From contig CADAEH010000004.1 in assembly GCA_902786855.1 (NCBI GenBank), positions 124,001 through 188,000 on the forward strand: 64,000 bases of DNA, in the 5' to 3' direction. The position numbers and the translations under genes are program-made. The number at the start of each line of letters is the position of its first letter. The stretch's first letter is position 1. This document shows positions 151 through 16,932 of the stretch, piece by piece. The stretch is from an uncultured Eubacteriales bacterium (GTDB taxonomy: Bacteria > Bacillota > Clostridia > Peptostreptococcales > Anaerovoracaceae). The notes beneath the pieces are model-generated. The model was given only the letters and a program-made list of their open reading frames with translations, did no database searches and was not told the origin of the DNA.

Positions 151-165
151 AGCGAGGTGTGAAAC

Positions 166-1122: not shown

Positions 1123-1274
1123 CACCTATGAAAGCGATCAGAGCAAAGTGCATTGACTGCTGCTGCGGAGAGAAGAAAGAGATACGACTCTGCCCGATCG
1201 AAAGGTGCCCGCTATGGCCGTACAGGATGGGCAAGCGACCTGTGAAGGATACAGACATCGACAAGAAAGATTGA
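1110..1274 (+). CDS. Small Cys-rich conserved mobile-element protein
   Basis: A 54-residue protein whose ATG lies inside the last codons of the replication gene, so the two are translationally coupled (preceding AGAAGGGAGGCG is a good ribosome site). It contains the pattern RAKCIDCCCGEKKEIRLC, followed by CPLWPYRMGKRP. This five- to six-cysteine signature recurs in small proteins of clostridial phages and integrative elements. The cysteines suggest a zinc knuckle. Its function is not known to me. The internal ATGs at codons 4 and 7 are alternative starts. Confidence 0.75.
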   Translation: MGSMTPMKAIRAKCIDCCCGEKKEIRLCPIERCPLWPYRMGKRPVKDTDIDKKD

Positions 1275-1641
1275 GAACAGAAAAGTAGAGATAGCTAAGA
1301 CTTTTTTCTGAAAAGTGACCCGATATACGACACTTTTGAGAAGGGTATAGACCGGGAACAATAATCAGACAGATCTTCATGACAGTCAGAGATCATGAAT
1401 GTGATTAAGAGGGATCCGAACTACTGTCATGTAGCTGAAGGACGAAGGAGCATATGAGGAGCACACAGTTGTGGATACATAGGAGCCACACGGACTCCTA
1501 ACAAGGGAGATAAAGGAAATGAACAATGAAAATGTATAGCCATAAAGGCCTCGCCGACTGAGAGCGAAATACACCCATCGCACAAACCTTACGGTTCGTA
1601 CTCGCGGTACCGATGAATAAAGAACGTCCAGGGAAAAGGGG
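1275..1641 (+). other. Non-coding interval upstream of the relaxase, candidate oriT
   Basis: I see no convincing gene in these 367 bases. They hold several short inverted repeats: AAAAGTG/CACTTTT around 1311-1335, TCATGA/TCATGA around 1378-1400, and TAGGAG/CTCCTA around 1480-1500. AACC/GGTT flanks a 4-base spacer near 1586. Origins of transfer commonly lie just upstream of a MobA/MobL relaxase and consist of such repeats next to the nick site, so this is the best place for oriT. I could not recognise a nick-site consensus. Confidence 0.4.
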
Positions 1642-2715: not shown

Positions 2716-2724
2716 ATGTGACTG

Positions 2725-2733
2725 TGCTATAAT
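2725..2733 (+). promoter_or_regulatory. Extended -10 promoter of the small membrane peptide transcript
   Basis: TGCTATAAT is a perfect extended -10 element just after the relaxase stop. No good -35 is visible. Transcription would start near 2740 and give a structured leader of about 170 bases before the 27-codon peptide gene at 2910. Confidence 0.5.
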
Positions 2734-2755
2734 TCGGAATACTCTTGAGGCGGTA

Positions 2756-2801
2756 AATGCTCCCTTTGATTTTACGGCTTCGCCGTAAGGTAGGGAGCAT
2801 T
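2756..2801 (+). repeat. Large nested hairpin in the leader of the small peptide mRNA
   Basis: Outer arms AATGCTCCCT (2756-2765) and AGGGAGCATT (2792-2801) are perfect complements, and inner arms TTACGGC/GCCGTAA flank a TTC loop. Further short complementary blocks (GGAGGG/CCCTCC, about 2840-2858) follow before the ribosome site. Long stable leaders that hide the ribosome site are typical of type I toxin mRNAs, so this may delay translation. There is no U run, so it is not a simple terminator. Confidence 0.6.
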
Positions 2802-2909
2802 GATTTCGCTCGACAAGCTCGCTCAATAGATGCCCTCTCCGGAGGGACTGTGACCCTCCGTATATATAGAAATCCCTTGTGGAAATCTGATAGAAAGGAG
2901 GGCAATGCT

Positions 2910-2993
2910 ATGGACGTGTTCCAGTTCATGCAGATCGTGGGTTTCGCGCTCGCTTTCTTCGTAGCCGGGTACACTCTTGGCAAAAGAAAATAA
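2910..2993 (+). CDS. Small hydrophobic peptide, candidate type I toxin
   Basis: A 27-residue peptide beginning MDVFQFMQIV and ending GYTLGKRK. It has one hydrophobic helix of about 18 residues with a basic tail, the build of Fst/TxpA-like membrane toxins. The start is fixed by AGAAAGGAGGG about 9 bases upstream. A longer in-frame reading from 2757 exists, but it would translate through the hairpin region and lacks a ribosome site. The gene is followed by a two-way terminator and a minus-strand promoter, which together make a convergent antisense RNA likely. Toxicity is inferred from layout only. Confidence 0.6.
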   Translation: MDVFQFMQIVGFALAFFVAGYTLGKRK

Positions 2994-3071
2994 CCGCCCA
3001 ACGCCACATTGATGCGGTTATTATCTAACTAATTCATATGCGGGCTAACCGTCTATCGGTAGCCTTTATCT
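2985..3071 (-). ncRNA. Candidate antisense antitoxin RNA
   Basis: A minus-strand promoter at 3078-3106 would start an RNA near 3071. The RNA would read leftward through a hairpin (GGCTAACCG/CGGTAGCC, 3043-3064 on the plus strand) and end at the shared terminator 2989-3022. It would overlap the 3' end of the toxin-like mRNA tail to tail. This is the arrangement known for par/Fst-type and similar type I systems. The ends are predicted, not mapped. Confidence 0.45.
2989..3022. terminator. Bidirectional terminator between toxin-like mRNA and antisense RNA
   Basis: AATAACCGC (2989-2997) and GCGGTTATT (3014-3022) form a perfect 9-bp stem that begins in the stop region of the small peptide. A- and T-rich flanks on both sides fit termination in both directions. 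Confidence 0.65.
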
Positions 3072-3077
3072 ATGCTT

Positions 3078-3106
3078 ATAATAATCAAAAGCTACTGCAT
3101 TTTCAA
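3078..3106 (-). promoter_or_regulatory. Minus-strand promoter for the antisense RNA
   Basis: Read on the minus strand, TTGAAA (3106-3101) and TATTAT (3083-3078) are separated by exactly 17 bases. This is a good sigma-A type promoter pointing at the small peptide gene. Confidence 0.55.
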
Positions 3107-3303
3107 GTATTTAAGATGAATGGCGCAATACGGCTTAAATAGTTGATTGAGTGGAAGCGTTATGCTTTGTATATCTGCCTCTCTTTGCAATTTAGGGTGT
3201 AAGGAGCGGGTTTGTTTTTTGTTCAGTTTCACTAGCAAGAAATGCTTGCGTGTCTCTTTACAACGGATAGTGCTATTATTCTTGTATAGAGGAGAGGCAT
3301 AGT

Positions 3304-4602
3304 ATGGAAATAGGAGAGAAGATAAAGAAAATCAGAAAGGAAAGCAATCTCAGTCAGGAAGAATTCGGAGAGCTTTTCCATGTGACACGGCAGGCCGTGT
3401 CACATTGGGAGCATAATCGCAATTATCCGGATATGGGCACTCTTGAAAAAATAAGCGACAAATTCAATATCTCATTTGATGAACTTATCAAAGGGGATGA
3501 AGAACTGATCGATAAAATAGACAAAACTCGCATTAGGGCCAGTCTTTGGAAAAAGCTGTTTATTATTTTGGGTTTAATAATGCTAGTGCTCACAACCTTA
3601 TATGCTATGCCAAAGGCAGCTAAATATCTGTATTATGATCCAGAAGAAACTGTTGCAGTCCAGCACTACAGTGATGGATCGGTAGAGGATAAGCGAATGG
3701 ATGTAGACATGCAGGTCTTCAGTACTCTCCGTATACCAGGACATAAATTTGACAATGTCATCAGCTACGATATGGGAATGGGTTGCTATGACGTAACAAT
3801 AAACCAAAGTTCTTACGTTGGAGACAAGGAAAAATCGGTATCCGGTACAGTCGAGCGAAACCATTTGCAGTTGTTTGACCCTAATGTATTTAAAATACCA
3901 TATGGTAATGTGTTTGAATGGAGCACATACTCAAGAGATATTCATAAAAGTCTGGAGGAAAACATTGCGAATGATCAGGAAGAATGGGAACGTGAAACTC
4001 ATGCGGACGGATTCACTCTCCCGGAAGCTCAGGGAATTGCGGGCGATACTGAAGATTCAAAAGACGCTCTAAAAGAACTTGCCCCTGATAAATATTATGA
4101 GGCATACATATCTTTTCATAATGCCATGGACTATAAGGATGCGCTGAAGTGGATAGATGACCATAGAGCGGAAGGACTATTATATCCTTGGGTTGCGGTT
4201 GCGACAGGTGACGACATTCAGAATGGCCCAATTGGGTTCTATACTGAGTTTTCAGGATACTTGAGGGCTTTTGACAAAGAGAAATATCCATTCCTTTTTG
4301 GATATGAAGATGTATACAAAAATAACGGAGAAGATGAACTCAGAAATGAGGCCAATGCACAGCAACATATGCTGAGCATGCTCAGATACATGCAGGATCA
4401 GAAAACCTTTTGGAAAATGATGAGCGACGCTGGCTTTGACTCCAACTTCAATGAAGAGTGTCTTGAATCGACAATTGATTATATTGAGAAAAATGGTCTT
4501 AAGATATACGGCGTTGCCATTACAGCAAAGAAGGATACTCTGATTAAGATCCATGAGGATAAGGAAGTTTTCTCGATCGGTACAGAAGCTTATAATAATT
4601 AG
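3304..4602 (+). CDS. XRE-family HTH protein with transmembrane and sigma-regulator-like extracytoplasmic region
   Basis: A 432-residue membrane-anchored regulator. Residues 1-65 are a Cro/C1 helix-turn-helix (LSQEEFGELF ... RQAVSHWEHNRNYPD). One membrane segment covers about 83-102. The outside part has a stretch after the membrane segment resembling Sigma_reg_N. A later stretch (about 264-315, YYEAYISFHNAMDY ... PWVAVATG) resembles Sigma_reg_C, a domain usually found on anti-sigma factors. The combination suggests an envelope-sensing, DNA-binding receptor. An extended -10 (TGCTATTAT, 3271-3279) and GAGGAGAGG ribosome site precede it. It is 26 bases upstream of a lipoprotein gene, probably its partner. 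The domain calls outside the HTH are moderate. Confidence 0.7.
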   Translation: MEIGEKIKKIRKESNLSQEEFGELFHVTRQAVSHWEHNRNYPDMGTLEKISDKFNISFDELIKGDEELIDKIDKTRIRASLWKKLFIILGLIMLVLTTLYAMPKAAKYLYYDPEETVAVQHYSDGSVEDKRMDVDMQVFSTLRIPGHKFDNVISYDMGMGCYDVTINQSSYVGDKEKSVSGTVERNHLQLFDPNVFKIPYGNVFEWSTYSRDIHKSLEENIANDQEEWERETHADGFTLPEAQGIAGDTEDSKDALKELAPDKYYEAYISFHNAMDYKDALKWIDDHRAEGLLYPWVAVATGDDIQNGPIGFYTEFSGYLRAFDKEKYPFLFGYEDVYKNNGEDELRNEANAQQHMLSMLRYMQDQKTFWKMMSDAGFDSNFNEECLESTIDYIEKNGLKIYGVAITAKKDTLIKIHEDKEVFSIGTEAYNN

Positions 4603-4628
4603 TGGCATATAAAGGAAGGGAATCAAGT

Positions 4629-5237
4629 ATGTTTACAAGAAGGAAAATTCTGATATTCATGTCTTTGATAATGATTGCAGCAATGTCTTTCGCAATGACT
4701 GCTTGTAAGACCGATGATGTCTCGAAGAGCGTTGAAGATGATGTCTTGAGGCGTGCTGAAAATGAAGAAAAGCTGCTTAAAGCGATGACTGAATATCCGG
4801 GAGAGGGATTATATTATCCTGCAATGACTGAAATCGGCCTTGATGCATCTGCGCCGACAGAGGGGGAACTAGCGGAGGAAAAAAAGAAGGCAGCAAACGA
4901 GAAAGATGTCTGGCAAAAGGCAGTAGGGGACTGCTTTGCTGATGGTATGTTCGATACTTTCTATAGCGAATGGGAGAGAACCCATATAATGGGAGCGGCA
5001 TGGATCTATGAACTGGAAACGGAAATGACTGGTTTCAATATTGAGGATGATGCATCGCAGGGCTCAGACAATATAGAACATGCTATTATAACAGTCACTG
5101 CAACTGATAGATCCAGGAATACTTTGTCCTTCAATATGGACTGGAGAGTCATTTTCGACAGTAAAAATCCTGATCTTATTCAGAAGATAGAGCTGATTGA
5201 CGATGGTGGATTCTTAGAGGCATATTTGGAAGATTGA
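4629..5237 (+). CDS. Putative lipoprotein downstream of the XRE membrane regulator
   Basis: A 202-residue exported protein. The start ATG 4629 is chosen because AAAGGAAGGG lies about 8 bases upstream and the resulting N-terminus is a lipoprotein signal: basic MFTRRK, hydrophobic core, then lipobox MTAC with the cysteine near residue 21. The mature part is acidic, with no fold I recognise. It follows the regulator at 3304 by 26 bases and is probably cotranscribed. It ends about 170 bases before the tRNA-fMet scar, so it is the last gene of the first element. Confidence 0.65.
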   Translation: MFTRRKILIFMSLIMIAAMSFAMTACKTDDVSKSVEDDVLRRAENEEKLLKAMTEYPGEGLYYPAMTEIGLDASAPTEGELAEEKKKAANEKDVWQKAVGDCFADGMFDTFYSEWERTHIMGAAWIYELETEMTGFNIEDDASQGSDNIEHAIITVTATDRSRNTLSFNMDWRVIFDSKNPDLIQKIELIDDGGFLEAYLED

Positions 5238-5334
5238 TAATCCGAAGAACAGACCGAAACGATAGATGGAAGCAATGAGTGGGCTGGAAAAAGATCGATT
5301 AGGAATAAATAAGATAACAGGAGAATGACTGGAA

Positions 5335-5355
5335 TTTGTACTAATTTTGTACTAA
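5335..5355 (+). repeat. Direct repeat next to att scar, candidate integrase arm sites
   Basis: TTTGTACTAA occurs twice (5335-5344 and 5346-5355), an 11-base spacing close to one helical turn, about 57 bases before the tRNA scar. Tyrosine recombinases bind such arm-type repeats near attachment sites, so this may be an integrase-binding site at the element's right end. Confidence 0.45.
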
Positions 5356-5411
5356 ATCGAACAAATAACGAAGAGAGACGTGGTGTTTTCAACGAGTTGA
5401 GAGCAACATTT

Positions 5412-5454
5412 CATAACCCGGAGGTCGAGGGTTCAAGTCCCTCCCCCGCAACCA
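5412..5454 (+). other. tRNA-fMet 3' half, attachment-site scar of an integrated element
   Basis: From CAT (anticodon, 5412-5414) to CCA (5452-5454) the sequence is the 3' half of an initiator tRNA. It has the CCC of the anticodon stem, GGAGGTCG, the T-arm GAGGG-TTCAAGT-CCCTC, the acceptor strand CCCCGCA, discriminator A and CCA. The A at the last acceptor position is the base of the initiator-specific 1-72 mismatch. The bases before CAT do not match a tRNA, so no D-arm or 5' half exists. This is what tyrosine-recombinase elements leave at the far end after integrating in a tRNA 3' end. The intact tRNA should lie left of the window. Confidence 0.85.
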
Positions 5455-5459
5455 CTTGA

Positions 5460-5497
5460 AGTCGGAATTCTGAACCACGGAATTCCGACTCTTTTCT
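5460..5497 (+). terminator. Rho-independent terminator after the tRNA-fMet scar
   Basis: AGTCGGAATTC and GAATTCCGACT form a perfect 11-bp stem with a 9-base loop, followed by CTTTTCT. It sits directly after CCA, as the terminator of a tRNA gene would. It was probably carried along with the tRNA tail. Confidence 0.8.
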
Positions 5498-5606
5498 GTA
5501 TTGCAGGCATAGCAATACTTTCAGACATTTTTTAGAATTGTGTCTGATTACAAACATTTGAAATAATTCGCGCAAAGATTCGAATCGGTGTTATATTCTG
5601 AACCAC

Positions 5607-6743
5607 TTATTCCGACAGATGTGCATAATACTGAGTTTCCTTTTCATCAGGAGACCTGTAATTGTTATAACTGTGCGGACGATTATGGTTATAGTTCATG
5701 ATATAATTTGCGATTCTTTTTTTGAATTCGCGCTCTGAGCGATAGTCATGCCTATAGATTTCTTCTCTCTTTAGATTCGAAAAAAAAGACTCATTCACTG
5801 CGTTGTCAATGGGCGTACCAGTATGTGAAAATGACTGATTCACAGAACAGCTTGCGAGAAGTCTGCGGAAAGCTCTGGACGTATACTGACATCCCTGATC
5901 GCTGTGGAATAATAGATTATTTGGAAAACCTCTCTCTTTGAATGCCATTTTGAAACAAGAGGTTACTATCTGTGTTGAAGCATTCGGAGAAATCTTATAG
6001 CCGACAATTTTTCTTGAAAACAGATCCATAACAACACATACATTATAATAAATACCTTTTACCTTGAATTTGGTAATATCACTGACCCATACAGTATTTG
6101 GTGCTGAAACATCGAACTGTCTTTTGACTTTGTTCTTACGATGCAGGGCATAGTAATCTTTCTTTGAATGTATCCTTATGCTTTCGAGACCGAGTTCATG
6201 CATTATACTAAGCACATACTTCTTTGAAGTATGGTATCCCTGCCTATTTAAAACAGCCAGAATCTTGTCTGAACCATAGCATTGCTCACTTTCATCAAAA
6301 ATAAGTTGAACTGCATCGCTGATTGTCTTGTGATGCAGTTCATAACTGGTCGGAGTATGTTCACATACTATCCTGTTATGATAAGTTCCTTTTGAAATAT
6401 GAAGAGCCTCAAGTGTCGCATTGATTCCGTAAATGGGACTTAATCTCACGAATTCGCTTAGTCTCTCTTCGAGCGGTGATTCACTGTTACAGTTTGCGTC
6501 ATTGAGAATATCTACGATTTTCCTTAGCTTTTGCATACTGCGCTGTGTATCACAGAACTCTTTATGTATCATTATTTCCATTCCAAGATCTGCCGCATAC
6601 TCCTTGTATTTGCCAGGGGCAATCCAGAAATATGCCGTTGATTCCGAAATGCCATAGATTTTACATAACTCTTTTACCGGAGTTCCACTCCAATATGCAG
6701 AGCGCATTGACAGGATTTGAGAATCATTAAGTTTTGAATACAT
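5607..6743 (-). CDS. IS3-family transposase (single frame)
   Basis: A 378-residue DDE transposase. The N-terminal part is a helix-turn-helix (residues 5-40, PVKELCKIYGISESTAYFW), and the integrase core carries the triad D222 (VSDITKF), D282 (FHSDQGCQY) and E318 (NAVNESFF) with the typical D-35-E spacing. In most IS3 elements two overlapping frames are joined by programmed frameshifting; here everything is in one uninterrupted frame. I could not identify convincing terminal inverted repeats in 5500-5606 or 6744-6823, so the ends of the insertion sequence are left open. A 5-base-mismatched copy of the scar's terminator loop (TTCTGAACCAC) occurs at 5596-5606. Confidence 0.88.
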   Translation of the reverse strand: MYSKLNDSQILSMRSAYWSGTPVKELCKIYGISESTAYFWIAPGKYKEYAADLGMEIMIHKEFCDTQRSMQKLRKIVDILNDANCNSESPLEERLSEFVRLSPIYGINATLEALHISKGTYHNRIVCEHTPTSYELHHKTISDAVQLIFDESEQCYGSDKILAVLNRQGYHTSKKYVLSIMHELGLESIRIHSKKDYYALHRKNKVKRQFDVSAPNTVWVSDITKFKVKGIYYNVCVVMDLFSRKIVGYKISPNASTQIVTSCFKMAFKERGFPNNLLFHSDQGCQYTSRAFRRLLASCSVNQSFSHTGTPIDNAVNESFFSNLKREEIYRHDYRSEREFKKRIANYIMNYNHNRPHSYNNYRSPDEKETQYYAHLSE

Positions 6744-6823
6744 GTAACCTCCTTATGTTAATATAAAAATAAAACAACAAAGAGCATTATATGATCCATG
6801 TCAAGTGAGCGAGGAAATATGTT

Positions 6824-9799
6824 ATGAACATCGAAGCATATGATTTGGATTCCCTGCGTAAAATAATCAGAGGATTACAGGAAGAAAATAGAAGTCTGAA
6901 GGCGCAGCTGCGACAGGCGGGAGCGGCCTATAACGAGCAAGACTATTTTTCAGACAGAATAGAAGAGTATGAAGAATATGATCCTGACCAGGGTGCAAGA
7001 ATATATAGACCTTTTATTACAAAGGCTCATGCTCAGGCTTTCTTCAAAATGTTCTGGGGCCGTCAGGATGTTTATGCAAAACGTGGACGCAAGGGAGGCT
7101 ATTTCCCGCAATGCGCAAACAGATGGAATAATTACGTCTGCCCGAAGCAGCATGGTGAAAAGCAGTTTTGTGATGAATGCGCTTTTAATCAGTGGATAAA
7201 GCTTACTCCGGAAACTGTAGTCCAGCACTTGATCGGCTATAAGGAAGATGGCACAGATGTTATTGGTGTATACCCGTTGTTCCCGGACGGTACCTGCAGG
7301 TTTCTTGTATTTGATTTTGATAATCATATTAAAGGATCTGAAGCCAACGACTATGCAAATGAGGATGAAGCCTGGCATGAAGAGGTAGATGCACTCAGAA
7401 AAATGTGCGAAAAGAATGGCGTGACTCCTCTTGTGGAAAGATCAAGATCAGGACGTGGCGCTCATGTCTGGATTTTCTTTGATAAGCCGATATCGGCATC
7501 GATTGCAAGGAACTTCGGATTCATGCTTCTGGACAGGGGAGCAGCATCAGTTAATATGAAGTCTTTCCATTATTACGACAGAATGTATCCATCCCAGGAC
7601 ACAGCAAGCAAGCTGGGAAATCTTATTGCGTTGCCGTTGCAGGGTCAGGCATTGAATAATGGTAATAGTGCCTTTGTAGATAGAAACTGGAATGCATATC
7701 CCGACCAGTGGGATGTTCTTGTGAACCGAACTCCACGGTATTCCCAAAGAGAAATTGAGCAACTTATGATCAAGTGGTCAAATGAACTGGATCCGAATGC
7801 TGTGAATGATACAGAGCTGTTCTCTGGCTCAAGACCAAAACCGTGGAGAAAGACTGACTGCCTGAACAAAAGTGACGTAATAGGCAAGTTACATATTGTG
7901 TTGGCGGATGGTGTTTATGTAGATGCTCTGAATCTTATGCCAAGATTACAGAATCAGATAAGATGTATGACAGCATTCGATAATCCTAAATACTTCCAGA
8001 ATAAAAGGCTTGGTTTTTCAAATTATTATAATTTCAGTGCCTTATATCTTGGCAAAGATGTTGATGGATATATCCGTATGCCAAGAGGACTACTGGAAGA
8101 ACTGGAAGCAGCATGTGACAAAGCGGGGATAGAATATGACGTTACTGATCATAGGGAAAAGGGAAGACCGATAAGAGTTAAATTTAATGGAACGCTTAAA
8201 CAACAGCAGGATCTTGCAGCGCAGAAAATGCTTGAGTATGATAACGGCATTCTCAGTGCTGCCACTGCTTTCGGAAAAACTGTTGTCTGCAGCTACCTTA
8301 TTGCAGAGAGAAAGGTCAACTGCCTGGTTCTGCTGCAGAGCAAAGACCTTTTGGACCAATGGGTCTATGAACTTGAAAGGTTCTTGGATATAGATGAGGA
8401 GCCGCCGGAATATACAACCAAGACCGGAAGAGTCAAAAAGAGAGACAGTGTAATTGGAGTTTTGCATGGATCAAAGAAGGCACTTACGGGAATAGTTGAT
8501 GTAGCTATGGTAGGTTCTGTATATGCAAAGGGCAAGTTCAATGAGCTGATCAATTCATACGGAATGGTCATAATGGATGAATGTCATCATGCGGCAGCAA
8601 ATACAGCGGTTGAAGTTCTTCAGAAAGTGAATGCAAGATATGTTTATGGCGTATCAGCAACAATAAAAAGAAGTGACGAGCTTGAAAAGATGATACCTAT
8701 GCTGATCGGTCCGATGCGCCACAGCTATACAGCAAAGCAGAGAGCTATCTATCAGGGAATCGGTCACTATGTATTCCCTCGATTCACTAGGGCCATCGAT
8801 ACTTTTGAAAGCCGAAGTGACATTAATCAGGCTTTTTCACTTATCAGCAAAAGTATTGATCGTAACCAGATGATAATCTCAGATGTTAAGCATTCAATAT
8901 CTGACAAAAAGACACCTGTCATCCTGACAAGATACAAAGAACATGCAAAATATCTCTACGATAACCTGAGAGAAGAGGCTGATCATGTATTTCTTATATA
9001 TGGAGACAATTCAGATAAAGAAAACAGCACAGCCAGAATTGAAATGAAAGGAATTCCGGATGATGAATCCATGATACTTGTGGCTACCGGGCAGAAGATT
9101 GGTGAAGGCTTTGACATGCCACGGCTTGATACACTTATGCTCGCTTCTCCTGTATCTTCTTCAGGGTCTAACCTTGAACAATATGTAGGACGGCTCAACA
9201 GAGACTATGAAGGAAAAAAGGAAGTCATAGTCTATGATTATGTCGATTCACATATACGCTACTTCAACAATATGTATACTAAGAGGCTGAATCTGTATAA
9301 AAAGATTGGCTTCAGCGTAATTGGGTGGGCGGCTCATGAGAAGCAACAGGCTAATGCCATCTATGATGCAGGCAACTATTCTGATACATTTGAACAGGAT
9401 GTTATAGAAGCAGATAAGGCTATTGTGATTTCAAGCCCGGTACTTCTTCGTGAAAAGGTGAATCGATTCATATATATTGTTCGCAGCCGACAGGAAGCCG
9501 GAGTAAAGATCACTGTAATCACAACAAATCCGGATCGAGTACTTGATAGTTCGTCAGATTATTATATGGAACTCATCAATACAATGACAAACAATGGGAT
9601 CAACGTTATTCCGAGAGAAGAGGTGTTGGAACATTTCGCAGTTATTGATGATGAAATAGTATGGCACGGAGGCGTAAACCTTCTTGGAAGTGATGACATC
9701 TGGGATAATCTCATTAGAATCAAGTCTCCGATAGTAGCGGCAGAACTGTTGGAGCTAGCCCTTGGTGATGACAGATGGGAAAGCTGGGATTATGAATAA
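6824..9799 (+). CDS. TOTE conflict-system protein: archaeo-eukaryotic primase, SF2 helicase and PLD-like domain
   Basis: A 991-residue multidomain protein. Residues 8-32 form a short coiled coil. A Cys cluster (C97, C106, C116, C119) precedes the primase core with FDFD (acidic pair D164/D166) and RSGRGAHVWIFF (H214). The helicase has Walker A AFGKT near 480-486, DECHH near 585-590, VSATIKRSD, and motif VI QYVGRLNR near 786. The C-terminal 130 residues look like a phospholipase-D nuclease domain. The expected HxK dyad is degenerate, however: the block reads EHFAVIDDEIVWHGG, so this domain may be inactive. TOTE proteins are described as mobile conflict or defence modules. The gene lies between two tRNA scars, which supports transfer. 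Confidence 0.85.
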   Translation: MNIEAYDLDSLRKIIRGLQEENRSLKAQLRQAGAAYNEQDYFSDRIEEYEEYDPDQGARIYRPFITKAHAQAFFKMFWGRQDVYAKRGRKGGYFPQCANRWNNYVCPKQHGEKQFCDECAFNQWIKLTPETVVQHLIGYKEDGTDVIGVYPLFPDGTCRFLVFDFDNHIKGSEANDYANEDEAWHEEVDALRKMCEKNGVTPLVERSRSGRGAHVWIFFDKPISASIARNFGFMLLDRGAASVNMKSFHYYDRMYPSQDTASKLGNLIALPLQGQALNNGNSAFVDRNWNAYPDQWDVLVNRTPRYSQREIEQLMIKWSNELDPNAVNDTELFSGSRPKPWRKTDCLNKSDVIGKLHIVLADGVYVDALNLMPRLQNQIRCMTAFDNPKYFQNKRLGFSNYYNFSALYLGKDVDGYIRMPRGLLEELEAACDKAGIEYDVTDHREKGRPIRVKFNGTLKQQQDLAAQKMLEYDNGILSAATAFGKTVVCSYLIAERKVNCLVLLQSKDLLDQWVYELERFLDIDEEPPEYTTKTGRVKKRDSVIGVLHGSKKALTGIVDVAMVGSVYAKGKFNELINSYGMVIMDECHHAAANTAVEVLQKVNARYVYGVSATIKRSDELEKMIPMLIGPMRHSYTAKQRAIYQGIGHYVFPRFTRAIDTFESRSDINQAFSLISKSIDRNQMIISDVKHSISDKKTPVILTRYKEHAKYLYDNLREEADHVFLIYGDNSDKENSTARIEMKGIPDDESMILVATGQKIGEGFDMPRLDTLMLASPVSSSGSNLEQYVGRLNRDYEGKKEVIVYDYVDSHIRYFNNMYTKRLNLYKKIGFSVIGWAAHEKQQANAIYDAGNYSDTFEQDVIEADKAIVISSPVLLREKVNRFIYIVRSRQEAGVKITVITTNPDRVLDSSSDYYMELINTMTNNGINVIPREEVLEHFAVIDDEIVWHGGVNLLGSDDIWDNLIRIKSPIVAAELLELALGDDRWESWDYE

Positions 9800-9847
9800 C
9801 CTATGAATTGAAAATGATTATTAATTCACCTTTTGAATTGACACTTA

Positions 9848-9856
9848 TGCTATAAT
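9848..9856 (+). promoter_or_regulatory. Extended -10 promoter of the GNAT pair
   Basis: TGCTATAAT, a perfect extended -10, lies 37 bases before the ATG of the small gene at 9894. An AT-rich stretch with TTGAATTGACA lies just upstream. Confidence 0.5.
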
Positions 9857-9893
9857 CATTTTACAAATTGCTGATTGGAAAGGAGGAAACTGT

Positions 9894-10064
9894 ATGGTTT
9901 ATTCGGTAAGAACAGATAGGCCTATTATTTCTACTAAGCCATTGAAGACTAAGAGAGTAGAAGGCGAGCACTCGAAAAAAGTAAGAGAATTTATGGATAG
10001 CCATAAGGTTTCCATAAATACAAGTGCTAACGGCGATATAATCGTTAATGTTAAGGAAAATTGA
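9894..10064 (+). CDS. Small protein upstream of GNAT enzyme, candidate antitoxin
   Basis: A 56-residue basic protein starting MVYSVRTDRP, with an excellent ribosome site (AAAGGAGG, 6 bases before ATG 9894). Its stop is separated by one base from the ATG of the GNAT gene, so the two are translationally coupled. The C-terminal third alternates hydrophobic and polar residues (NGDIIVNVKEN), suggesting a short strand pair. Position and size fit an antitoxin, but it does not resemble the usual DUF1778 ribbon-helix-helix partner of GNAT toxins. I do not recognise its family. Confidence 0.6.
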   Translation: MVYSVRTDRPIISTKPLKTKRVEGEHSKKVREFMDSHKVSINTSANGDIIVNVKEN

Positions 10065-10065
10065 T

Positions 10066-10608
10066 ATGATCAATCAATTTGAATCTAAACTTGATACTAA
10101 ACTTCTTGACGCAAGCCTTCAAAAGCTTGCGTCTGACTTTCATTGTGGTAATCAATACATAGATTTATTCCTCAGAAGTGCTCAAGCACTTGATGATAGT
10201 TTTGGTAAAACCTATGTATGGCTCAATGAATCTGGTGATGAAATAATCGGGTTTTACAATATTAGTGCAGGAAGCGTAGACTATCTGGAAGACGGTTATC
10301 GTTACAAGATGGGCGGTGCTATTCATATTAATGAGTTCGCAATAAAACAAAGGTATCAGGGGGTGGCAGTTACTGAATTTGCTAATATTTCAGATTTGCT
10401 GTTGGATGATTGCTTAGAGCGAATCAAATATATTCGTAATAATCATATTGGTTGTTCTTTCGTAACATTACAGTCAACTAAGGAGGGTTATAGCCTATAT
10501 CTACGACATGACTTTGAAGATATAGAAGAGGATATGGGAATTACAAAGAATCAACCAGCTGAAGACGGTTGTAAGGCAATGTATATGGTTATAGATTTAG
10601 TTGTGTAA
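10066..10608 (+). CDS. GNAT-family N-acetyltransferase, candidate toxin
   Basis: A 180-residue protein with a GNAT-like pattern: a strand ending in NEFAIKQRYQGVAV, which places an RxxGxA acetyl-CoA loop near residue 100, and later GYSLYLRHDFEDI, the common YxxxGF-like closing motif. GNAT toxins of type II systems acetylate aminoacyl-tRNA and are paired with a small upstream antitoxin, as here. The start ATG 10066 follows AAGGAAAA. Base composition is visibly AT-richer than the genes after 12.9 kb, consistent with acquisition. It could also be an ordinary GNAT enzyme. Confidence 0.65.
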   Translation: MINQFESKLDTKLLDASLQKLASDFHCGNQYIDLFLRSAQALDDSFGKTYVWLNESGDEIIGFYNISAGSVDYLEDGYRYKMGGAIHINEFAIKQRYQGVAVTEFANISDLLLDDCLERIKYIRNNHIGCSFVTLQSTKEGYSLYLRHDFEDIEEDMGITKNQPAEDGCKAMYMVIDLVV

Positions 10609-10725
10609 GTATATATAAACCAACTCGAACTATACTGAAACCTACAGATCTGGAGATAAAATAGGGGATGATTTTGAAGAATGGCAATGTAATCCATGAA
10701 AATACTGAGGTTCAGATAATAATGC

Positions 10726-10743
10726 GTCCCTACCCCGCAACCA
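10726..10743 (+). other. Second tRNA-fMet tail, candidate att scar
   Basis: GTCCCTACCCCGCAACCA matches the last 18 bases of the longer scar (GTCCCTCCCCCGCAACCA, 5437-5454) with one substitution. As at the first scar, a terminator follows at once. It marks a second boundary 5.3 kb to the right, so the segment 5455-10743 (IS3, TOTE, GNAT pair) looks like one inserted unit. Confidence 0.65.
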
Positions 10744-10751
10744 CTTTTTTT

Positions 10752-10778
10752 GCTCTCGGAGATGATCCGGGAGCTTTT
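10752..10778 (+). terminator. Terminator following the second tRNA tail
   Basis: GCTCTCGGA and TCCGGGAGC pair (one wobble) around a 5-base loop and are followed by TTTT. A run of T also precedes it. Confidence 0.6.
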
Positions 10779-10849
10779 GATTTTACTGAATTTAATTGAT
10801 ATTTCAATATATGGTATCATATGGGTGTCGCAGTTTAGCTCGACAAATC
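10753..10849 (+). repeat. Intergenic promoter-like repeat, copy A
   Basis: The last 49 bases (10801-10849) align without gaps to 16201-16249 with 38 identities, counted by hand. The preceding hairpin region also resembles 16159-16180. The most conserved core is GGTATCATAT, and TGGTATCAT fits an extended -10. The copy lies between the second tRNA tail and the gene at 10874. Confidence 0.7.
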
Positions 10850-10873
10850 GAAATTTACGGAGAAGAATGTGTT

Positions 10874-11290
10874 ATGAGTGCATATGACTTCATTGCAGCA
10901 GACAGGAAAATGAAACCGGTCGAAATCGGAGTGGAGAATAAAGGTCACATGATTATCATAGAAAATGAAAATCATGTACTTGGCATATATGATGATAAGC
11001 CTAGCTGCTACACAGAGCCTTTTACTGACCTCCCAATAATTATGAGTGTTCAGATTGGAAACTTTGAAAATATAAGGGCTGAACTTTTCTCTTATGTGAA
11101 AGATGCTATCAAAGAAAATACCATAATTGAAGTTTGGTCCACATGGATGGGAGAGACTGATGGCATCGAGAGAAAAATAGTACATGAGAATAAACTGACT
11201 GCAGATGATCTTCAATGGGTTTACGGCCTTAAGGACAGAAGTCATCCCAGATGCCTGAAGATATATAAGTGGATTAGAGGGAAAAAATAG
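10874..11290 (+). CDS. Hypothetical protein
   Basis: A 138-residue soluble protein beginning MSAYDFIAAD, preceded by GGAGAAG 8 bases upstream of ATG 10874. An upstream in-frame start at 10796 would run through the promoter repeat and is rejected. There is no signal peptide, membrane segment or known motif. The predicted pattern is mixed strand and helix, with a basic C-terminus (KIYKWIRGKK). It stands alone between promoter repeat copy A and a terminator. Single-gene cargo next to att scars is often defence or immunity related, but nothing in the sequence shows this. Confidence 0.55.
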   Translation: MSAYDFIAADRKMKPVEIGVENKGHMIIIENENHVLGIYDDKPSCYTEPFTDLPIIMSVQIGNFENIRAELFSYVKDAIKENTIIEVWSTWMGETDGIERKIVHENKLTADDLQWVYGLKDRSHPRCLKIYKWIRGKK

Positions 11291-11444
11291 ACATATTCCC
11301 GTTTGTCTGGATAATGATAAATCGGAGTTTGTAGAGCTAATTGCTTAAAAGAAGAAGAATACAAATTCTTATTTGTTGGAATATCGCTAAATTGCAATTC
11401 TAGGATTATACATCAGACCATACTCGAAGTTACTGCACATAAAG

Positions 11445-11478
11445 CATGATCGGCAATTGGTGTCAGATCATGTTTTTT
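11445..11478 (+). terminator. Terminator after hypothetical gene
   Basis: CATGATC (11445-11451) and GATCATG (11466-11472) form a 7-bp stem followed by six T. The long loop makes it only moderately convincing. Confidence 0.5.
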
Positions 11479-11541
11479 ACTCTTTTGAAAGATATATGCA
11501 ATGGAAAACCAGAATGTCAGAGATACTGACACTGCGTTTCC

Positions 11542-11570
11542 TTGAGTGTAAGCGTGCCTCGCTTTATAAT
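11542..11570 (+). promoter_or_regulatory. Promoter of the second XRE membrane regulator
   Basis: TTGAGT and TATAAT are separated by exactly 17 bases, ending 42 bases before ATG 11613. This supports the later start over the longer reading from 11457. Confidence 0.7.
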
Positions 11571-11612
11571 GATTTCAGCGTTCGTTATAGTGTGACCAAG
11601 GAGGCGGGAACA

Positions 11613-12260
11613 ATGAATATTGGAGAACAAATCAAGGCGCGCAGGATAGAAATCGGTATGACACAGCAGGATATGGCCGATAGACTGGCTGTATCCAGAT
11701 CTGCCATATCGAACTGGGAAACCGGCAAGAACTATCCGGATCTCCAGATCATCGTTCAGATCTCCGAAGAGTTGAATATTTCTTTGGATACACTATTGAA
11801 AGGAGACACGAACGTGGTGGAGAAGATAGCAAATGATACGAATGAAAGCAAAAAACTCAGAGAAAATGCAAAACAGTTAAAGGGAGTGATCACGGTACTG
11901 GCAGTATTGCTGATTGGTGTTGTATATCTCTTTTTCGGCTGGTCAGCAGAAATCAGCAAGCCTGAGCAGGTGAAGGAGATGAAGATCGAGAACGATCAGC
12001 TCGTGATCGAAGTAGATACCCCAAATTACTACGGACAGCGCGACTGGTGGATCGATATTGATGATACGGGCACTGTTGCACAGGTCACGATCTGCTATGG
12101 CTTCGGAAAAAACCGTAAGGACAACAATATCATGAGAACATCTGTAAATACCGATGATTATTCAGATCCGCTGTCAAGAGAGCACATGGCAAAGCTTGAG
12201 AAGATACAGATTGTCACAACAAAAGGAAAAGTAGTGAAGGAACTGAATGTCACAAACTGA
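11613..12260 (+). CDS. XRE-family HTH protein with C-terminal membrane segment
   Basis: A 215-residue protein. Residues 1-65 are a Cro/C1 helix-turn-helix (IGMTQQDMADRLAVSRSAIS, then NWETGKNYPD). One membrane helix spans about 92-112, and roughly 100 residues lie outside the membrane. ATG 11613 is chosen because AAGGAGGCGGG lies 6 bases upstream and a promoter sits between this start and the next upstream one. The N-terminal half resembles the regulator at 3304, including NYPD and the LKGD/IKGD segment after the HTH, so both are probably the same class of membrane-tethered repressors. The external domain is different and unrecognised. Its target is unknown. Confidence 0.7.
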   Translation: MNIGEQIKARRIEIGMTQQDMADRLAVSRSAISNWETGKNYPDLQIIVQISEELNISLDTLLKGDTNVVEKIANDTNESKKLRENAKQLKGVITVLAVLLIGVVYLFFGWSAEISKPEQVKEMKIENDQLVIEVDTPNYYGQRDWWIDIDDTGTVAQVTICYGFGKNRKDNNIMRTSVNTDDYSDPLSREHMAKLEKIQIVTTKGKVVKELNVTN

Positions 12261-12385
12261 CAGAGAGATCTGTTCAGACTATGCTCAGAGATACATAAGG
12301 TAAAACAATGAATGTGGTATTATTTATAATGACTGTAAATCATCAAAGAAAGGGAGGAATCGATCCCCGTGAGTGAAATATTGCT

Positions 12386-12674
12386 AAATGGTTGTGGATT
12401 GGAGGAGCTGTTGCATGGTCACGTAACTTTATCGATACAGGCATGGTCGACAGTGAATCCCAACATGATCGGCACAAGCGGAAAGTCTGTAAAGCCTGCA
12501 GTGTTTATCGGATCGGGCATTTCGGGCGCGGCTCACTTCATAGTCGGAATGACAAAGAGCAAGCTGATCATCAATGTAAACAAAGATGAGAATGCCAAGA
12601 TCTTCAATCAGTCAGACTATGGAGTAGTCGGAGACGCAGCGAAATTCATGAGCGCTCTTAATGAGTTATTGTAA
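12386..12674 (+). pseudogene. etfA: etfA (electron transfer flavoprotein alpha) 3' remnant, frameshifted
   Basis: The C-terminal FAD-binding end of EtfA is recognisable in two reading frames. One frame from about 12386 reads IGGAVAWSRNFIDTG, matching the usual LGGAVGASRPxVDxG block. The next frame continues with GTSGKSVKPAVFIGSGISGA and ends KDENAKIFNQSDYGVVGD, matching the FAD-site block and the closing block of EtfA. The switch lies near 12460-12470. The N-terminal 200-odd residues and any etfB are absent. A short reading from GTG 12369 (101 residues) could be translated but would not make a working flavoprotein. Confidence 0.8.
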
Positions 12675-12693
12675 ATCATAGGAAGTGTTATAG

Positions 12694-12721
12694 CGGGTAG
12701 TCACCAGTGGCTGCCCGTTTT
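12694..12721 (+). terminator. Terminator after the etfA remnant
   Basis: CGGGTAGTCAC and GTGGCTGCCCG form an 11-bp stem with two G-T wobbles, followed by TTTT. It is probably the original etfA terminator. Confidence 0.65.
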
Positions 12722-12801
12722 GCTATGCATACGTTTTTTATTTTCAAGGCGTTTGATTATCGCGTTGTTGGCGATGCAGATAATATCCTTTCAGGACTTC
12801 G

Positions 12802-12836
12802 TTGAAATTTCACTATGTGGTATCATATTAATGTCA
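12802..12836 (+). repeat. Intergenic promoter-like repeat, copy B
   Basis: TTGAAATTTCA followed by GTGGTATCATATT matches copy C (16196-16230); by hand 25 of 30 bases agree from 12807. It precedes the M14 peptidase gene by 65 bases. No tRNA tail is found here, unlike copies A and C. Confidence 0.65.
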
Positions 12837-12900
12837 CATCAAGTTGATTAGGTATCATCATTTACAATTTTATTCAACACTAAAGAAGGAGCCTGATATA

Positions 12901-15900
12901 ATGAAAGGAGTATCCAGATTTCTGTCTGTGTTTCTTGTGCTTGCGCTGATACTCAGCTGCAGCGCCTGTACCTTCGGGACCTTTACCGCGCTTGGGGAGG
13001 AAGAGGATGTGGAAGAAATTGTCATCGGAGCGGACAACACGACTGAGCTCTTTGTGCCCCTGACGGAAAAGACCAGCAAAGCACTGGCTTTCCCTCTCTC
13101 TGAAGAACAGGCTGCTCAGGTCAGGAAGGCCGGTGCGCGCAATGTGACCTGGACCCTCCATCGGAATGCACCGTACGCAAACCCAGTGGACGGGAAATTT
13201 ATCCCCCTCCACGGCGAAGAAAAAATGTTCCCCAATGAAAAGGAAACGATCGACTTCGCAACTATCAGATTCAGTGATGCAAACGAATTCGGAGAAGCTT
13301 TTTCCATGAAGCGTTTTAAGACTAAGCTGGATGGTTCCACACTGAAACTGAATTTCACCACCACTCCGGTAAGCGGCGGCAGAAATGATAGTATTCCACA
13401 AGAAAACGGCGGCAGGTTTATGGATATCTGCGGTGATTTTACCCTTACTGCTGAACTGGACGGAGTCACCCTGGTGTCCCTTGATCACGTCACTATCAAG
13501 CCTTACACCTCTTTCCACACCATGTGGGAGACATTTGATGAACTGCAGCGGCTTGCTGAAGAAGGTGACGATGACGGCACTACATCCAGACCGTATGTGG
13601 AATACGGTGTGATGGGCAAGTCCTACCTTGGTTATGACATGCCATACCTCATCGTTGCCCGTGACAGCGCATCTGTACAAAAATGGCTGGATCTCTCTGA
13701 GCGGGCTGAGGAAACCGGAACTGCAGTTATCGATGAACTTAAAAACTCCGGGGATGAAGACTATCAGGTGCCTGTCCTGTATTCCAATGTCCATGCCAAC
13801 GAGGTCGCCGCTTCGGACGGGATACTGGAATTTGCCCGTCGGCTGATTGAGGAGCCATCTATCGAATACACGAAGCTCACCGGCTTCACTGAGGAAGGTA
13901 AGGTAAAACTCGAGAAGCAGCGGAAGGAAATGGGTCTGTACACTCCGAAGCTGCTCGCGGATAAGTGTAATTATCTGGGGTCCATCTGGTCCAATAAAAT
14001 GAAGGATTCCGACGTGGTGGACGGATTTGACAGTTATTATACATCCGAAAATGCCATCGTTAATGTGGCAGATCTTCTGGATGATACCTTTTTCATCCTC
14101 GTACCGGTGGAAAATGTAGATGGTCGCATGCACTACACCCGCTGTTCCACCAGCGGCTATAACCTCAACAGGGATAACGACTCCCAGGTAACGCCGGAGA
14201 CACAGAACATTCAGCATCTGATCGGCACCTATGATCCTGTCACCTTCCTGGAACTTCACGGGGTGGTAGAATCATTTCAGATAGAGCCCGCCACTCCGCC
14301 TCATCAGCCCAACTTTGAGTATGACGTGATCGCCAGAAATCAGATGGCCGGCGGGGAGGCATTCGGTGCGGCAGCCGTGGCCAACAACCCGGTTTACCAG
14401 AGCTATACGTCAGAGATGCGCGACTACATGGAATGCGACAAGAACGGTACACCGTCCTGGACAATAGGCGGAAATGATTATCCGACTACCTTTACCCCAA
14501 CATATGCCATGCTCCATGGATGTGTCGGATACACAGCTGAACTGCCCGCATATTCCGAGACCACCTGTCAGACAGCTGTCTACGGGCTTTTGGGGCTGGC
14601 TGACTACGTGGCTGCTAACAAGGAGAGCTACTTCGCAAATCTTGCAGAGATCTACTCCCGCGGCATAACTAACAAAAACTCCGATGCCGAGGTTGGCCCT
14701 TGGTTTGCAGACGGGCATGACAACATCGGTGCCGAAGCAGATATCTTTCGTCCTGCTCATACAGGGGAAGGAGAGAACGGACAGTTCTTCCCCGAGTGCT
14801 ATCTGATCCCTCTGGATGCGGAGAACCAGACTAATCTTCAGGCAGCCTTTGAAATGATCGAATACCTGACCCGCAACGACGTAAAAGTCAGCATTTCCGG
14901 TTCTCCCGTAACTGCAGACGGAAAGACATTTCCTGCCGGAACTGCCGTGGTTTCCATGTACCAGGCGAAGCGGTCTGTGGCCAACTCTGCCCTTTATAAA
15001 GGGAATTTGATCAAAACCTGGGATTCTTTGTCTAATGAAACAAGCGGATGCTTCAATTACATCCGAGGTTTTGACATGGTCACCTGTGTAAAGCCCGCGG
15101 AATATGATGTGATCGCAGGCTCTTTGGTCCAGACCCTGACCTATGATACGCTGCAGCCTTTCCTGCAGGAGCACGCTGTATCCCGGTTTACAGGTGAAAC
15201 GGGAGGGGATGTGATCATCTCTAACGCCTCAGAGAGCTCCACCGCAGCTGTAAACACCCTTCTGGGATCAGGCAAACAGGTCGGTATGATCACCGAGGGC
15301 GCATACAAGGGCGACTTTATCTGCTCCTATGAGGACTGGCAGGCAGTGTCTGACGATCATATCCTCACGGGCACCGGTGTTAAGGATCCGGATCTTACCG
15401 CCTATGTCATCGAAAAGACGCCTACGGTCTGCATCAGTGGAACAAAGAGTGCTCTTAAGCCTGCACCTGACGGCTACGTATACAGCACTCTCGAAACTTC
15501 CACTGATTACAACAATGAACGGATAGCAATGGAACTGATGGGCTTTGGCACCACTGAGGATCCCACCGGGGCTGACGCGGTGGTAGGCGGCGCTTATCTG
15601 GACAATGAGACCCTTGCAGCTGTGAAAGCCGGAGTTCCATATGTGGGATATACCTATAATGCTGTGGACAGTGTCCGGGAATCTATCCTTCCTGATATTC
15701 AGACCGGCACCGCTGAGGGAGTTGACTGTGTGGGCTATGTTACCTATCCAACTGAAACTCTCGTCAATGCAAGTTATATCATGGACGGGGACGATGTATT
15801 CTACTCCGTCGGGACAGATTACTTTACGGCTCTGCCTAAAGGCGCGAAGACCCTTGTTCAGCGTGACGGCAGCCGCGCTCCTCTGGAAGGCATTTTTTGC

Positions 15901-16095
15901 GGTGAAGATGAGAACACAAAGGCTTTCCTGAATGGTATCATGGGATTCTCTTATGAAGGCAAAGACAAAGACGGAAATGACGTGAATATCACTCTCTTTG
16001 CAAATTCCATGACCGAAAGCGGCCATCAGAGAGATGAGTATGCTTTCATCAGCAACGCTCTCTTTTCCGCTTTCCTGACTGAGACTCGTTATTAG
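12901..16095 (+). CDS. M14-family zinc carboxypeptidase-like lipoprotein
   Basis: A 1064-residue exported protein. ATG 12901 follows AGAAGGAG and opens a lipoprotein signal (hydrophobic core, then CSAC; lipid-bearing Cys near residue 21). The M14 metallocarboxypeptidase signature is spread over residues 240-560: HANE with H298 and E301, the LNRDND block near N423/R424, LELHG with H453 as third zinc ligand, and ELPAYSE with E547 as probable catalytic base. The C-terminal 450 residues have no fold I recognise. It likely trims peptides or peptidoglycan stem peptides outside the membrane. Third-position GC looks higher than in its neighbours, suggesting separate origin. Confidence 0.82.
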   Translation: MKGVSRFLSVFLVLALILSCSACTFGTFTALGEEEDVEEIVIGADNTTELFVPLTEKTSKALAFPLSEEQAAQVRKAGARNVTWTLHRNAPYANPVDGKFIPLHGEEKMFPNEKETIDFATIRFSDANEFGEAFSMKRFKTKLDGSTLKLNFTTTPVSGGRNDSIPQENGGRFMDICGDFTLTAELDGVTLVSLDHVTIKPYTSFHTMWETFDELQRLAEEGDDDGTTSRPYVEYGVMGKSYLGYDMPYLIVARDSASVQKWLDLSERAEETGTAVIDELKNSGDEDYQVPVLYSNVHANEVAASDGILEFARRLIEEPSIEYTKLTGFTEEGKVKLEKQRKEMGLYTPKLLADKCNYLGSIWSNKMKDSDVVDGFDSYYTSENAIVNVADLLDDTFFILVPVENVDGRMHYTRCSTSGYNLNRDNDSQVTPETQNIQHLIGTYDPVTFLELHGVVESFQIEPATPPHQPNFEYDVIARNQMAGGEAFGAAAVANNPVYQSYTSEMRDYMECDKNGTPSWTIGGNDYPTTFTPTYAMLHGCVGYTAELPAYSETTCQTAVYGLLGLADYVAANKESYFANLAEIYSRGITNKNSDAEVGPWFADGHDNIGAEADIFRPAHTGEGENGQFFPECYLIPLDAENQTNLQAAFEMIEYLTRNDVKVSISGSPVTADGKTFPAGTAVVSMYQAKRSVANSALYKGNLIKTWDSLSNETSGCFNYIRGFDMVTCVKPAEYDVIAGSLVQTLTYDTLQPFLQEHAVSRFTGETGGDVIISNASESSTAAVNTLLGSGKQVGMITEGAYKGDFICSYEDWQAVSDDHILTGTGVKDPDLTAYVIEKTPTVCISGTKSALKPAPDGYVYSTLETSTDYNNERIAMELMGFGTTEDPTGADAVVGGAYLDNETLAAVKAGVPYVGYTYNAVDSVRESILPDIQTGTAEGVDCVGYVTYPTETLVNASYIMDGDDVFYSVGTDYFTALPKGAKTLVQRDGSRAPLEGIFCGEDENTKAFLNGIMGFSYEGKDKDGNDVNITLFANSMTESGHQRDEYAFISNALFSAFLTETRY

Positions 16096-16113
16096 ACTGC
16101 TGCCGGAGAGCTG

Positions 16114-16125
16114 CTCCCGCAACCA
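16114..16125 (+). other. Third tRNA-fMet tail, short candidate att scar
   Basis: CTCCCGCAACCA repeats the final bases of the tRNA-fMet scar; only CCCGCAACCA (10 bases) is exactly shared. On its own this could be chance. Its place, right before a terminator and a copy of the same promoter repeat that follows the second scar, supports a third, more eroded boundary. Confidence 0.45.
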
Positions 16126-16158: not shown

Positions 16159-16249
16159 CTCCCGGAGACGATCGGGAAACTGCCCTTTGGTTCCGTTGAA
16201 ATTTCAAATTGTGGTATCATATTGGTGTCATAGTTCAATGTGACAAATC
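16159..16249 (+). repeat. Intergenic promoter-like repeat, copy C
   Basis: This is the counterpart of 10753-10849: the CTCCCGGAGACGATC block, then a 49-base ungapped match. It contains TGGTATCAT as candidate extended -10. It lies immediately upstream of the lipoprotein gene at 16273. Confidence 0.7.
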
Positions 16250-16272
16250 AGGTTGTAAAAGAGGTGACTCCT

Positions 16273-16932
16273 GTGAATAGACAACCACGTTATAGAACAA
16301 TTCTGATGATAAGTATAATTGTTATCACAGCTGTAGTTGCGATAACTGTTTCCGGCTGCAATGAAAACGAGGAGCAGGATCAAAACCAAAACCAAAACTA
16401 TTTGTCCCTAAGCGAGTATCTGGCAAAAACCAGCGAAAATTGGTTCCTGACAGGAAAAAATGAATATACAGTGCAGGCAATGATGGTCTCTGAAAAAATG
16501 ACTTTCCACAATGATCTGGAGGTCGTGGATCTGGTTGCCACAGATGATGGAGAAACTGTAGTATTAAAAGGAACCAGAGACGAGATCTGGACGTCTCCGC
16601 TGTCGCAAGTCATTATCAGGTATACAAAACCGGATGGCAGCGAACTCTGCAAAGAGGATTTTGCAAACAAAGATGTTTTTATTGACATTGTAACGATCCC
16701 AACCAAGGATACATACTATGCCATGCATGTTCCCAAGGATATTACTGTAATTGTAGAAACTGCTCAGGGAGATGTGCTGCACACAAATCTCCCAAACGCC
16801 CCGCATGGCGAAGGAGATTACCTGATCTGTACGATAGGAGAAGATGGGGGGCCAAATCTTTCAGATGTCTGGGTCCTGAATGGGTTGATTTTTCCGGACT
16901 GCTATGACACTTCTCACTTAAATGAGCAGTAA
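16273..16932 (+). CDS. Putative lipoprotein
   Basis: A 219-residue exported protein with GTG start at 16273, chosen because AAAGAGGTG lies 8 bases upstream. The alternative GTG 16240 lies inside the promoter repeat. The N-terminus is a lipoprotein signal ending VSGC, followed by an acidic Glu/Gln/Asn-rich linker with QNQNQN repeats. The mature region appears strand-rich with no recognised family. It is the first gene to the right of the third tRNA tail. Confidence 0.65.
   Translation: MNRQPRYRTILMISIIVITAVVAITVSGCNENEEQDQNQNQNYLSLSEYLAKTSENWFLTGKNEYTVQAMMVSEKMTFHNDLEVVDLVATDDGETVVLKGTRDEIWTSPLSQVIIRYTKPDGSELCKEDFANKDVFIDIVTIPTKDTYYAMHVPKDITVIVETAQGDVLHTNLPNAPHGEGDYLICTIGEDGGPNLSDVWVLNGLIFPDCYDTSHLNEQ

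Follow-up and report, generated by a model that had tools for sequence, protein, structure and literature searches.

Stacked units behind a tRNA-fMet gene of a Mogibacterium-like gut bacterium suggest an integration hotspot

Bacteria are known to gather genes by accretion at the ends of tRNA genes. In arrays of integrative and conjugative elements (ICEs), integrative mobilizable elements (IMEs) and cis-mobilizable elements (CIMEs) at the ends of tRNA and other genes, accretion, decay to CIMEs, re-integration and the transfer of composite tandems are described in the parts of PMC5704250 consulted here; the consulted parts of PMC3146451 describe tandem islands at the Dehalococcoides ssrA gene, bounded by 20-bp repeats that have a motif next to them; 15 of the islands lack an integration module. 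Here we analyze a locus downstream of the tRNA-fMet gene of a Mogibacterium-like gut bacterium, at which three consecutive units, A, B and C, each end in a displaced copy of the tRNA 3' end (a tail). It lies in and just left of a 64,000-nucleotide stretch (the window; C4:124001-188000, where C4 is contig CADAEH010000004.1) of a 2.9-Mb assembly in 62 contigs (genome G000), and coordinates are those of the window unless C4 is named. The comparison covers 48 genomes of the genus, G000 included, in which we searched for the integrase of A, the transposase of B, a right-end motif, a flank motif, an M14 peptidase gene and a GAPDH-like gene. Three records that carry B indicate that the genus is close to Mogibacterium of the ruminant gut.

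Three tails behind one tRNA gene

An intact tRNA-Met(CAT) gene, preceded by tRNA-Asn and tRNA-Leu genes, lies at C4:121790-121865, 2.1 kb left of the window, and its 20-base signature is present exactly once per genome in 28 of 37 genomes of the genus. Its 3' end recurs three times downstream, always on the plus strand: tail 1 (5412-5454) differs from the 43-bp tRNA 3' half at three positions (40 of 43 identical), tail 2 (10726-10743) agrees with the final 18 bp of tail 1 except at one base, and tail 3 (16114-16125) exactly repeats the 12 bases that end the resident gene. The 10-mer CCCGCAACCA has four matches in the window where 0.07 are expected, a count reached in none of 100 shuffles, and six in the whole genome: the intact tRNA-fMet, the three tails and two sites inside genes (window 38109 and contig C9). 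As a set, the three tails are not a product of chance. The match at 38109 was considered as a further tail and rejected, as it falls within coding sequence.

A hairpin with a T-run follows each of the three tails, and the positions of the tails, like these hairpins, agree with the original prediction, which was made from the window alone. Across relatives, a hairpin and T-run lie within 70 bases of the CCA at 29 of 31 non-redundant junctions (46 before similarity reduction, covering those tails that fit the search pattern, which the G031 tail, for one, does not), compared with 203 of 1500 random windows; both terminator-less junctions lie outside the genus. No Rfam family reached its gathering score in window positions 1-22000. 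The hairpins would end the tRNA transcript, and each genus unit examined starts with a terminator, which suggests that expression of the intact tRNA limits what can insert. A segment of about 112-113 bp, predicted to fold strongly and containing a terminator, stands between two fMet tails in G018 (L047:1549-1660) and G036 (C29:16521-16628); because it has relatives at other genomic places in the genus (G064, G066, G071 and G009), we treat it as a dispersed repeat.

We consider it very probable that tRNA-fMet is an integration hotspot growing by tandem accretion. An incoming unit would recombine within the 3' end of tRNA-fMet, restore the gene with its own copy of that end and supply a replacement terminator directly after the CCA, while older units would be displaced rightward, each marked by a displaced tail. 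At this locus B would have arrived in front of C, and A last, in front of B.

The extent of the hotspot varies widely among relatives. Its right anchor is a GAPDH-like gene (49457-50467, plus strand; the label is our own reading), matched in 46 of 48 genomes, three of them at only 44-46% identity. In eight genomes this gene shares a contig with tRNA-fMet and always lies downstream of it, at 0.4 kb in G019, 2.5 in G021, 9.9 in G067, 14.4 in G070, 18.4 in G024, 20.5 in G031, 45.0 in G022 and 51.6 in G000. Near-empty sites thus exist, and in G010 none of A, B or C was detected in the 3.6 kb after tRNA-fMet. Further tails beyond the tRNA were found at 10 of 26 genus loci on the tRNA strand and at 2 of 26 on the opposite strand, a count that covers 66 kb from the tRNA in G000 (its in-gene match left uncounted) and at most 20 kb, at some loci under 5 kb, elsewhere. 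No relative was seen to keep the first 16 kb of the window as ordinary chromosome without the tails.

Elements A and B and the order of their arrival

Element A begins directly after tRNA-fMet and ends in tail 1, its right attachment site (attR); it is 7,589 bp long, with positions 1-5454 (plus strand) inside the window. From the left it carries an integrase on the minus strand (C4:122093-123271; 80.6 bits to Phage_integrase, cut-off 27.1), an XRE gene and then, all on the plus strand and assigned by profile matches, a DUF6017 protein (166-1122; replication role unconfirmed), a MobA/MobL-type relaxase (1642-2715) and, as cargo, an XRE regulator with a Sigma_reg_C domain (3304-4602). The element is flanked by the 43-bp repeat, as attL and attR at a fixed target, and GTACTAA repeats near both ends are possible arm sites. 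No full conjugation machinery was found: the other in-window reading frames large enough to be scanned matched regulators, DUF6017 or no family. Judged by its gene content and repeats, A is an IME, whose integrase would be specific for this site and could excise it.

Integrases at least 95% identical to that of A occur six times among the 48 genomes, always at the tRNA-fMet locus. In five (G000, G008, G009, G015 and G016) the tRNA-Met gene adjoins the integrase; in the sixth, G003, the left end of A follows the tRNA and an extra reading frame lies between this end and the integrase. A is 98.5% identical to its counterpart in G008 over its whole length and in G009 over the 3.2 kb covered. By contrast, the DNA left of the tRNA is only 68.7% identical in G009 (over 839 bp), and the approximately 1 kb left of the tRNA in G008 has no match to G000. 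Neither an exact copy of the 43-bp tail nor a relative of the integrase was found in viral contigs. More distant relatives of the integrase (69-71% identity) lie near tRNA-Val in G069 (L275) and, as a partial relative, in G026 (L278), and near tRNA-Gly in G027 (L277); the G025 relative has no tRNA in the stretch covered. Those near tRNA-Val and tRNA-Gly may reflect target switching within one integrase family.

Element B (5455-10743, plus strand) contains an IS3-like transposase on the minus strand (5607-6743; D, D and E residues present), a TOTE primase-helicase (6824-9799, plus), both by profile match, and a last gene without a match in Pfam or NCBIfam (10048-10608, plus). Units matching B stand directly after tRNA-fMet in G004 (CACZAM010000020.1), G007 (ONHU01000123.1) and G066 (JAFWMD010000072.1; Mogibacterium sp., sheep jejunum). 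Their transposases are 89%, 100% and 88% identical to that of B and are its sole close copies in the 48 genomes; a truncated 63% relative lies further along the tRNA-fMet locus of G008. Over 3.55 kb, B is 99.8% identical to the G007 unit. Because B adjoins the intact tRNA in these three relatives while A intervenes in G000, A arrived after B. The high identity of A and B, set against the diverged DNA left of the tRNA, shows that both moved recently between lineages.

The original prediction had proposed successive integrations with the newest on the left, and had expected an intact tRNA-fMet and an integrase left of the window and relatives with empty or singly occupied sites; all of this is borne out by the data above, in which A and B each occur beside other neighbors. 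Most of its gene labels also stand (relaxase, IS3 and TOTE here; XRE, an ETF-alpha fragment and M14 in segment C). Its "Rep" at 166-1122 matches DUF6017 only, and its "GNAT" at 10048-10608 matches nothing. Its reading of shrinking tail length and identity as age fails, for the reasons given in the next section.

The TOTE gene was surveyed separately. In padloc it matches individual primase-polymerase and helicase models. Among the best 80 of 144 TOTE loci, the B transposase or a relative is present in four, three at 88-100% and one (L184) at 37%; in L184 this different IS3-like transposase lies divergently beside the TOTE gene, as in B, which suggests a recurrent pairing. tRNA genes occur in 7 of the 80 stretches, and in three the tRNA-Met of the fMet locus stands beside the unit; L243, with a tRNA cluster that includes a tRNA-Met, is counted apart from these three. 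This survey does not support the use of TOTE as a general sign of integration at tRNA genes.

Short-tailed units with a common right end

The right end of B, from a conserved motif (10628-10644) through tail 2 (10628-10743, plus strand), recurs in relatives. By right-end alignment we identified 13 such ends, here called type II, in nine genomes: G000, G001, G004 (two), G012 (two), G023, G033, G034, G036 (two) and G066 (two). About 100 bp upstream of the tail lies the motif AACYATRYTGRAACMTA, of which the 48 genomes contain 12 copies, spread over 10 genomes; its reversed control is not matched at all. Eleven of these copies lie in the 13 ends, and the one in G071 is not followed by a tail; of the remaining two ends, one in G036 differs from the motif by one base and the second in G012 lacks it. 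The GTACTAA repeat is absent from all 13, compared with its presence at four of six ends that bear the 43-bp tail. Ends outside the genus (G052, G042, G040 and G051) or near a contig end at the tRNA (G005 and G026) were set aside, as were tail 3 and the G031 tail, which are not type II.

Some type-II ends belong to units in contact with the intact tRNA, namely B in G004 and G066 and a small unit in G034. We consequently rejected tail length as a clock: the approximately 18-bp tail, judged from these alignments, is the native right end of a separate class of units and not a decayed long tail. The lesson is that, without relatives, tail length should not be taken as age. A 2.1-kb unit after tRNA-fMet in G024 (L082) lies within full 43-bp repeats; it has two reading frames (190 and 323 amino acids), of which the longer looks Rep-like on inspection, and we noted no integrase in it.

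The cargo of type-II units is varied. TOTE is accompanied by a DUF3800-like gene in G004 and G066 and by the protein without a family match in the window; further units of G004 and G066 carry a MATE transporter whose gene runs the opposite way; those of G001, G023 and G036 a Na/Pi-type transporter with a two-component pair; those of G012 and G034 a pair of small genes; and a methyltransferase and an acylphosphatase precede the G071 motif (the DUF3800, Na/Pi, two-component, methyltransferase and acylphosphatase labels are our own reading). The G033 sequence begins at the right end and so contributes an end but no cargo. In five of the six cargo kinds, MATE being the exception, the distance from the stop codon of the cargo to the start of the motif is 20-74 bp. 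A tblastn search of eight integrases from these loci against the 13 stretches returned only that of A itself and, left of the unit in G023, a fragment; a distant recombinase could escape such a search. Type-II units such as B are most likely moved by an integrase acting in trans. With attachment-type sites on both sides in G000, G004 and G066 (the tRNA or tail 1 on the left, the tail-2 type on the right), B is a candidate CIME, but it carries the IS3-like transposase. The genus loci read show no larger ICE or IME from which B could descend, and the genes of B that were scanned include no relaxase.

Several observations weigh against stepwise accretion as we propose it. No tyrosine integrase was found in B or C by tblastn, so that neither can be called a self-mobile element. 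The bases between the CCA and the hairpin of B differ between G000 and G007 despite the near identity of the units, which is unexpected under clean integration; what precedes the G023 transporter unit is the integrase fragment and a tRNA-Ser rather than a tail of fMet; the G036 segment stands between two tails; and right-end alignment finds no recognizable right end upstream of the 12-bp tail 3. These four points indicate rearrangement beyond clean integration. All the genus genomes used are draft assemblies.

A tentative alternative, to which we give a real but minor chance, is that tRNA-fMet hosts an integron-like gene bank, in which non-autonomous type-II cassettes with a common right end and a replacement terminator on the left are moved in trans by one unseen recombinase. 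The shared tail and motif, the short spacing between cargo and motif, and the lack of any tyrosine integrase in the units by tblastn all fit such a bank. However, the left ends resemble one another only in the terminator, the second G012 end lacks the motif, no helper was seen, and the units may instead be decayed islands of the CIME kind.

We think it improbable that B is a site-specific DDE transposon, whose IS3-like transposase would target the position just after tRNA-fMet with the short tail as part of its recognition sequence. All four close copies of the transposase, G000 included, lie at tRNA-fMet, one per genome; the bases between CCA and B vary among copies; and it is the only recombinase-like gene within units bearing type-II ends, barring transposase reading frames of neighboring segments and the G023 integrase fragment. 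Against this, no paired terminal repeats surround the transposase (the left end, compared with the stretch before its start codon, scores below the shuffle mean), and at least five other cargo kinds bear the same right-end motif without it. An 18-bp flanking repeat is, moreover, not the usual target duplication of IS3 elements. Transposition of B by its transposase is possible but not favored, and a free IS3 insertion within B is likewise not favored, as terminal inverted repeats are absent.

A composite island A-B-C that integrated only once is quite improbable: transfer of CIME-ICE tandems is described in the consulted parts of PMC5704250, but A stands beside other neighbors in G008 and G016, and B in G004, G007 and G066. 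That tails 2 and 3 arose by chance within ordinary chromosome is barely credible, for although tail 3 is only 12 bp long and lacks a conserved upstream end, the 10-mer is far in excess of expectation, the right end at tail 2 is shared with 12 others, which contradicts chance for that tail, and the terminator behind tail 3 is similar to the ones that follow tails in G004, G018 and G036.

Segment C and comparison with known systems

Segment C (10744-16125, plus strand) contains a 164-amino-acid reading frame and, by profile matches, an XRE gene, an ETF-alpha fragment and an M14 peptidase; among the 48 genomes the M14 gene is found only in G000. The left flank of C and that of the following segment, D, are alike, and both resemble the DNA directly after the intact tRNA-fMet in G025 and G030. 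A motif in this flank (10815-10833 and 16215-16233, plus strand) has eight matches in 7 of the 48 genomes and none in the control, and all of the eight but the one in G061 stand behind an fMet tail or tRNA. The first gene of D (16240-16932, plus) is related to the gene that directly follows tRNA-fMet in G010. Because C starts with a copy of this native flank, it was probably captured from the fMet locus of another strain. Both motif copies precede a short inverted repeat (TGTCG/CGACA and TGTCA/TGACA), whose arms appear by eye to vary in step and might perhaps form an operator or leader hairpin.

Tandem accretion is already known, from ICE/IME/CIME arrays and the Dehalococcoides islands. What is new here is the host, the site at tRNA-fMet and the class of integrase-less units that share an end; we do not claim that integration at tRNA-fMet is unpublished. 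The parts of PMC12429752 consulted concern prophages that carry tRNA-fMet rather than integration into it. Our literature searches returned nothing on Mogibacterium mobile genetic elements with tRNA, on integrase-less tRNA-gene islands moved in trans or on "TOTE conflict".

Compared with the arrays in the consulted parts of PMC5704250, the locus is alike in that units are stacked at one gene end, the newest nearest the gene, with older units often lacking integration genes; it differs in its tRNA-fMet site, in its integrase-less units of varied cargo with one right end and in that the stretches read showed no conjugative element. With the Dehalococcoides islands, as the consulted parts of PMC3146451 present them, it shares a single-copy RNA gene, tandem islands, a motif just before the repeat and integrase-less units; there, serine recombinases act at ssrA, whereas here the one integrase identified is a tyrosine recombinase at tRNA-fMet. 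The value of this hotspot lies in its readable order (A after B), in relatives that bear the units separately and in its near-empty sites. Tycheposons are a further kind of cargo island that is associated with tRNA genes. In integron cassettes, a recombination site stands behind a single gene or a few genes, and the recombinase is supplied from elsewhere. Type-II units have the same layout, but their recombination site is a tRNA tail, and no integron integrase was found, the A integrase scoring 29.6 against a TIGR02249 cut-off of 265. Integrase-less units with a common end offer a concrete test case for the movement of non-autonomous islands, and it is this common end that could set the locus beyond a further case of known accretion.

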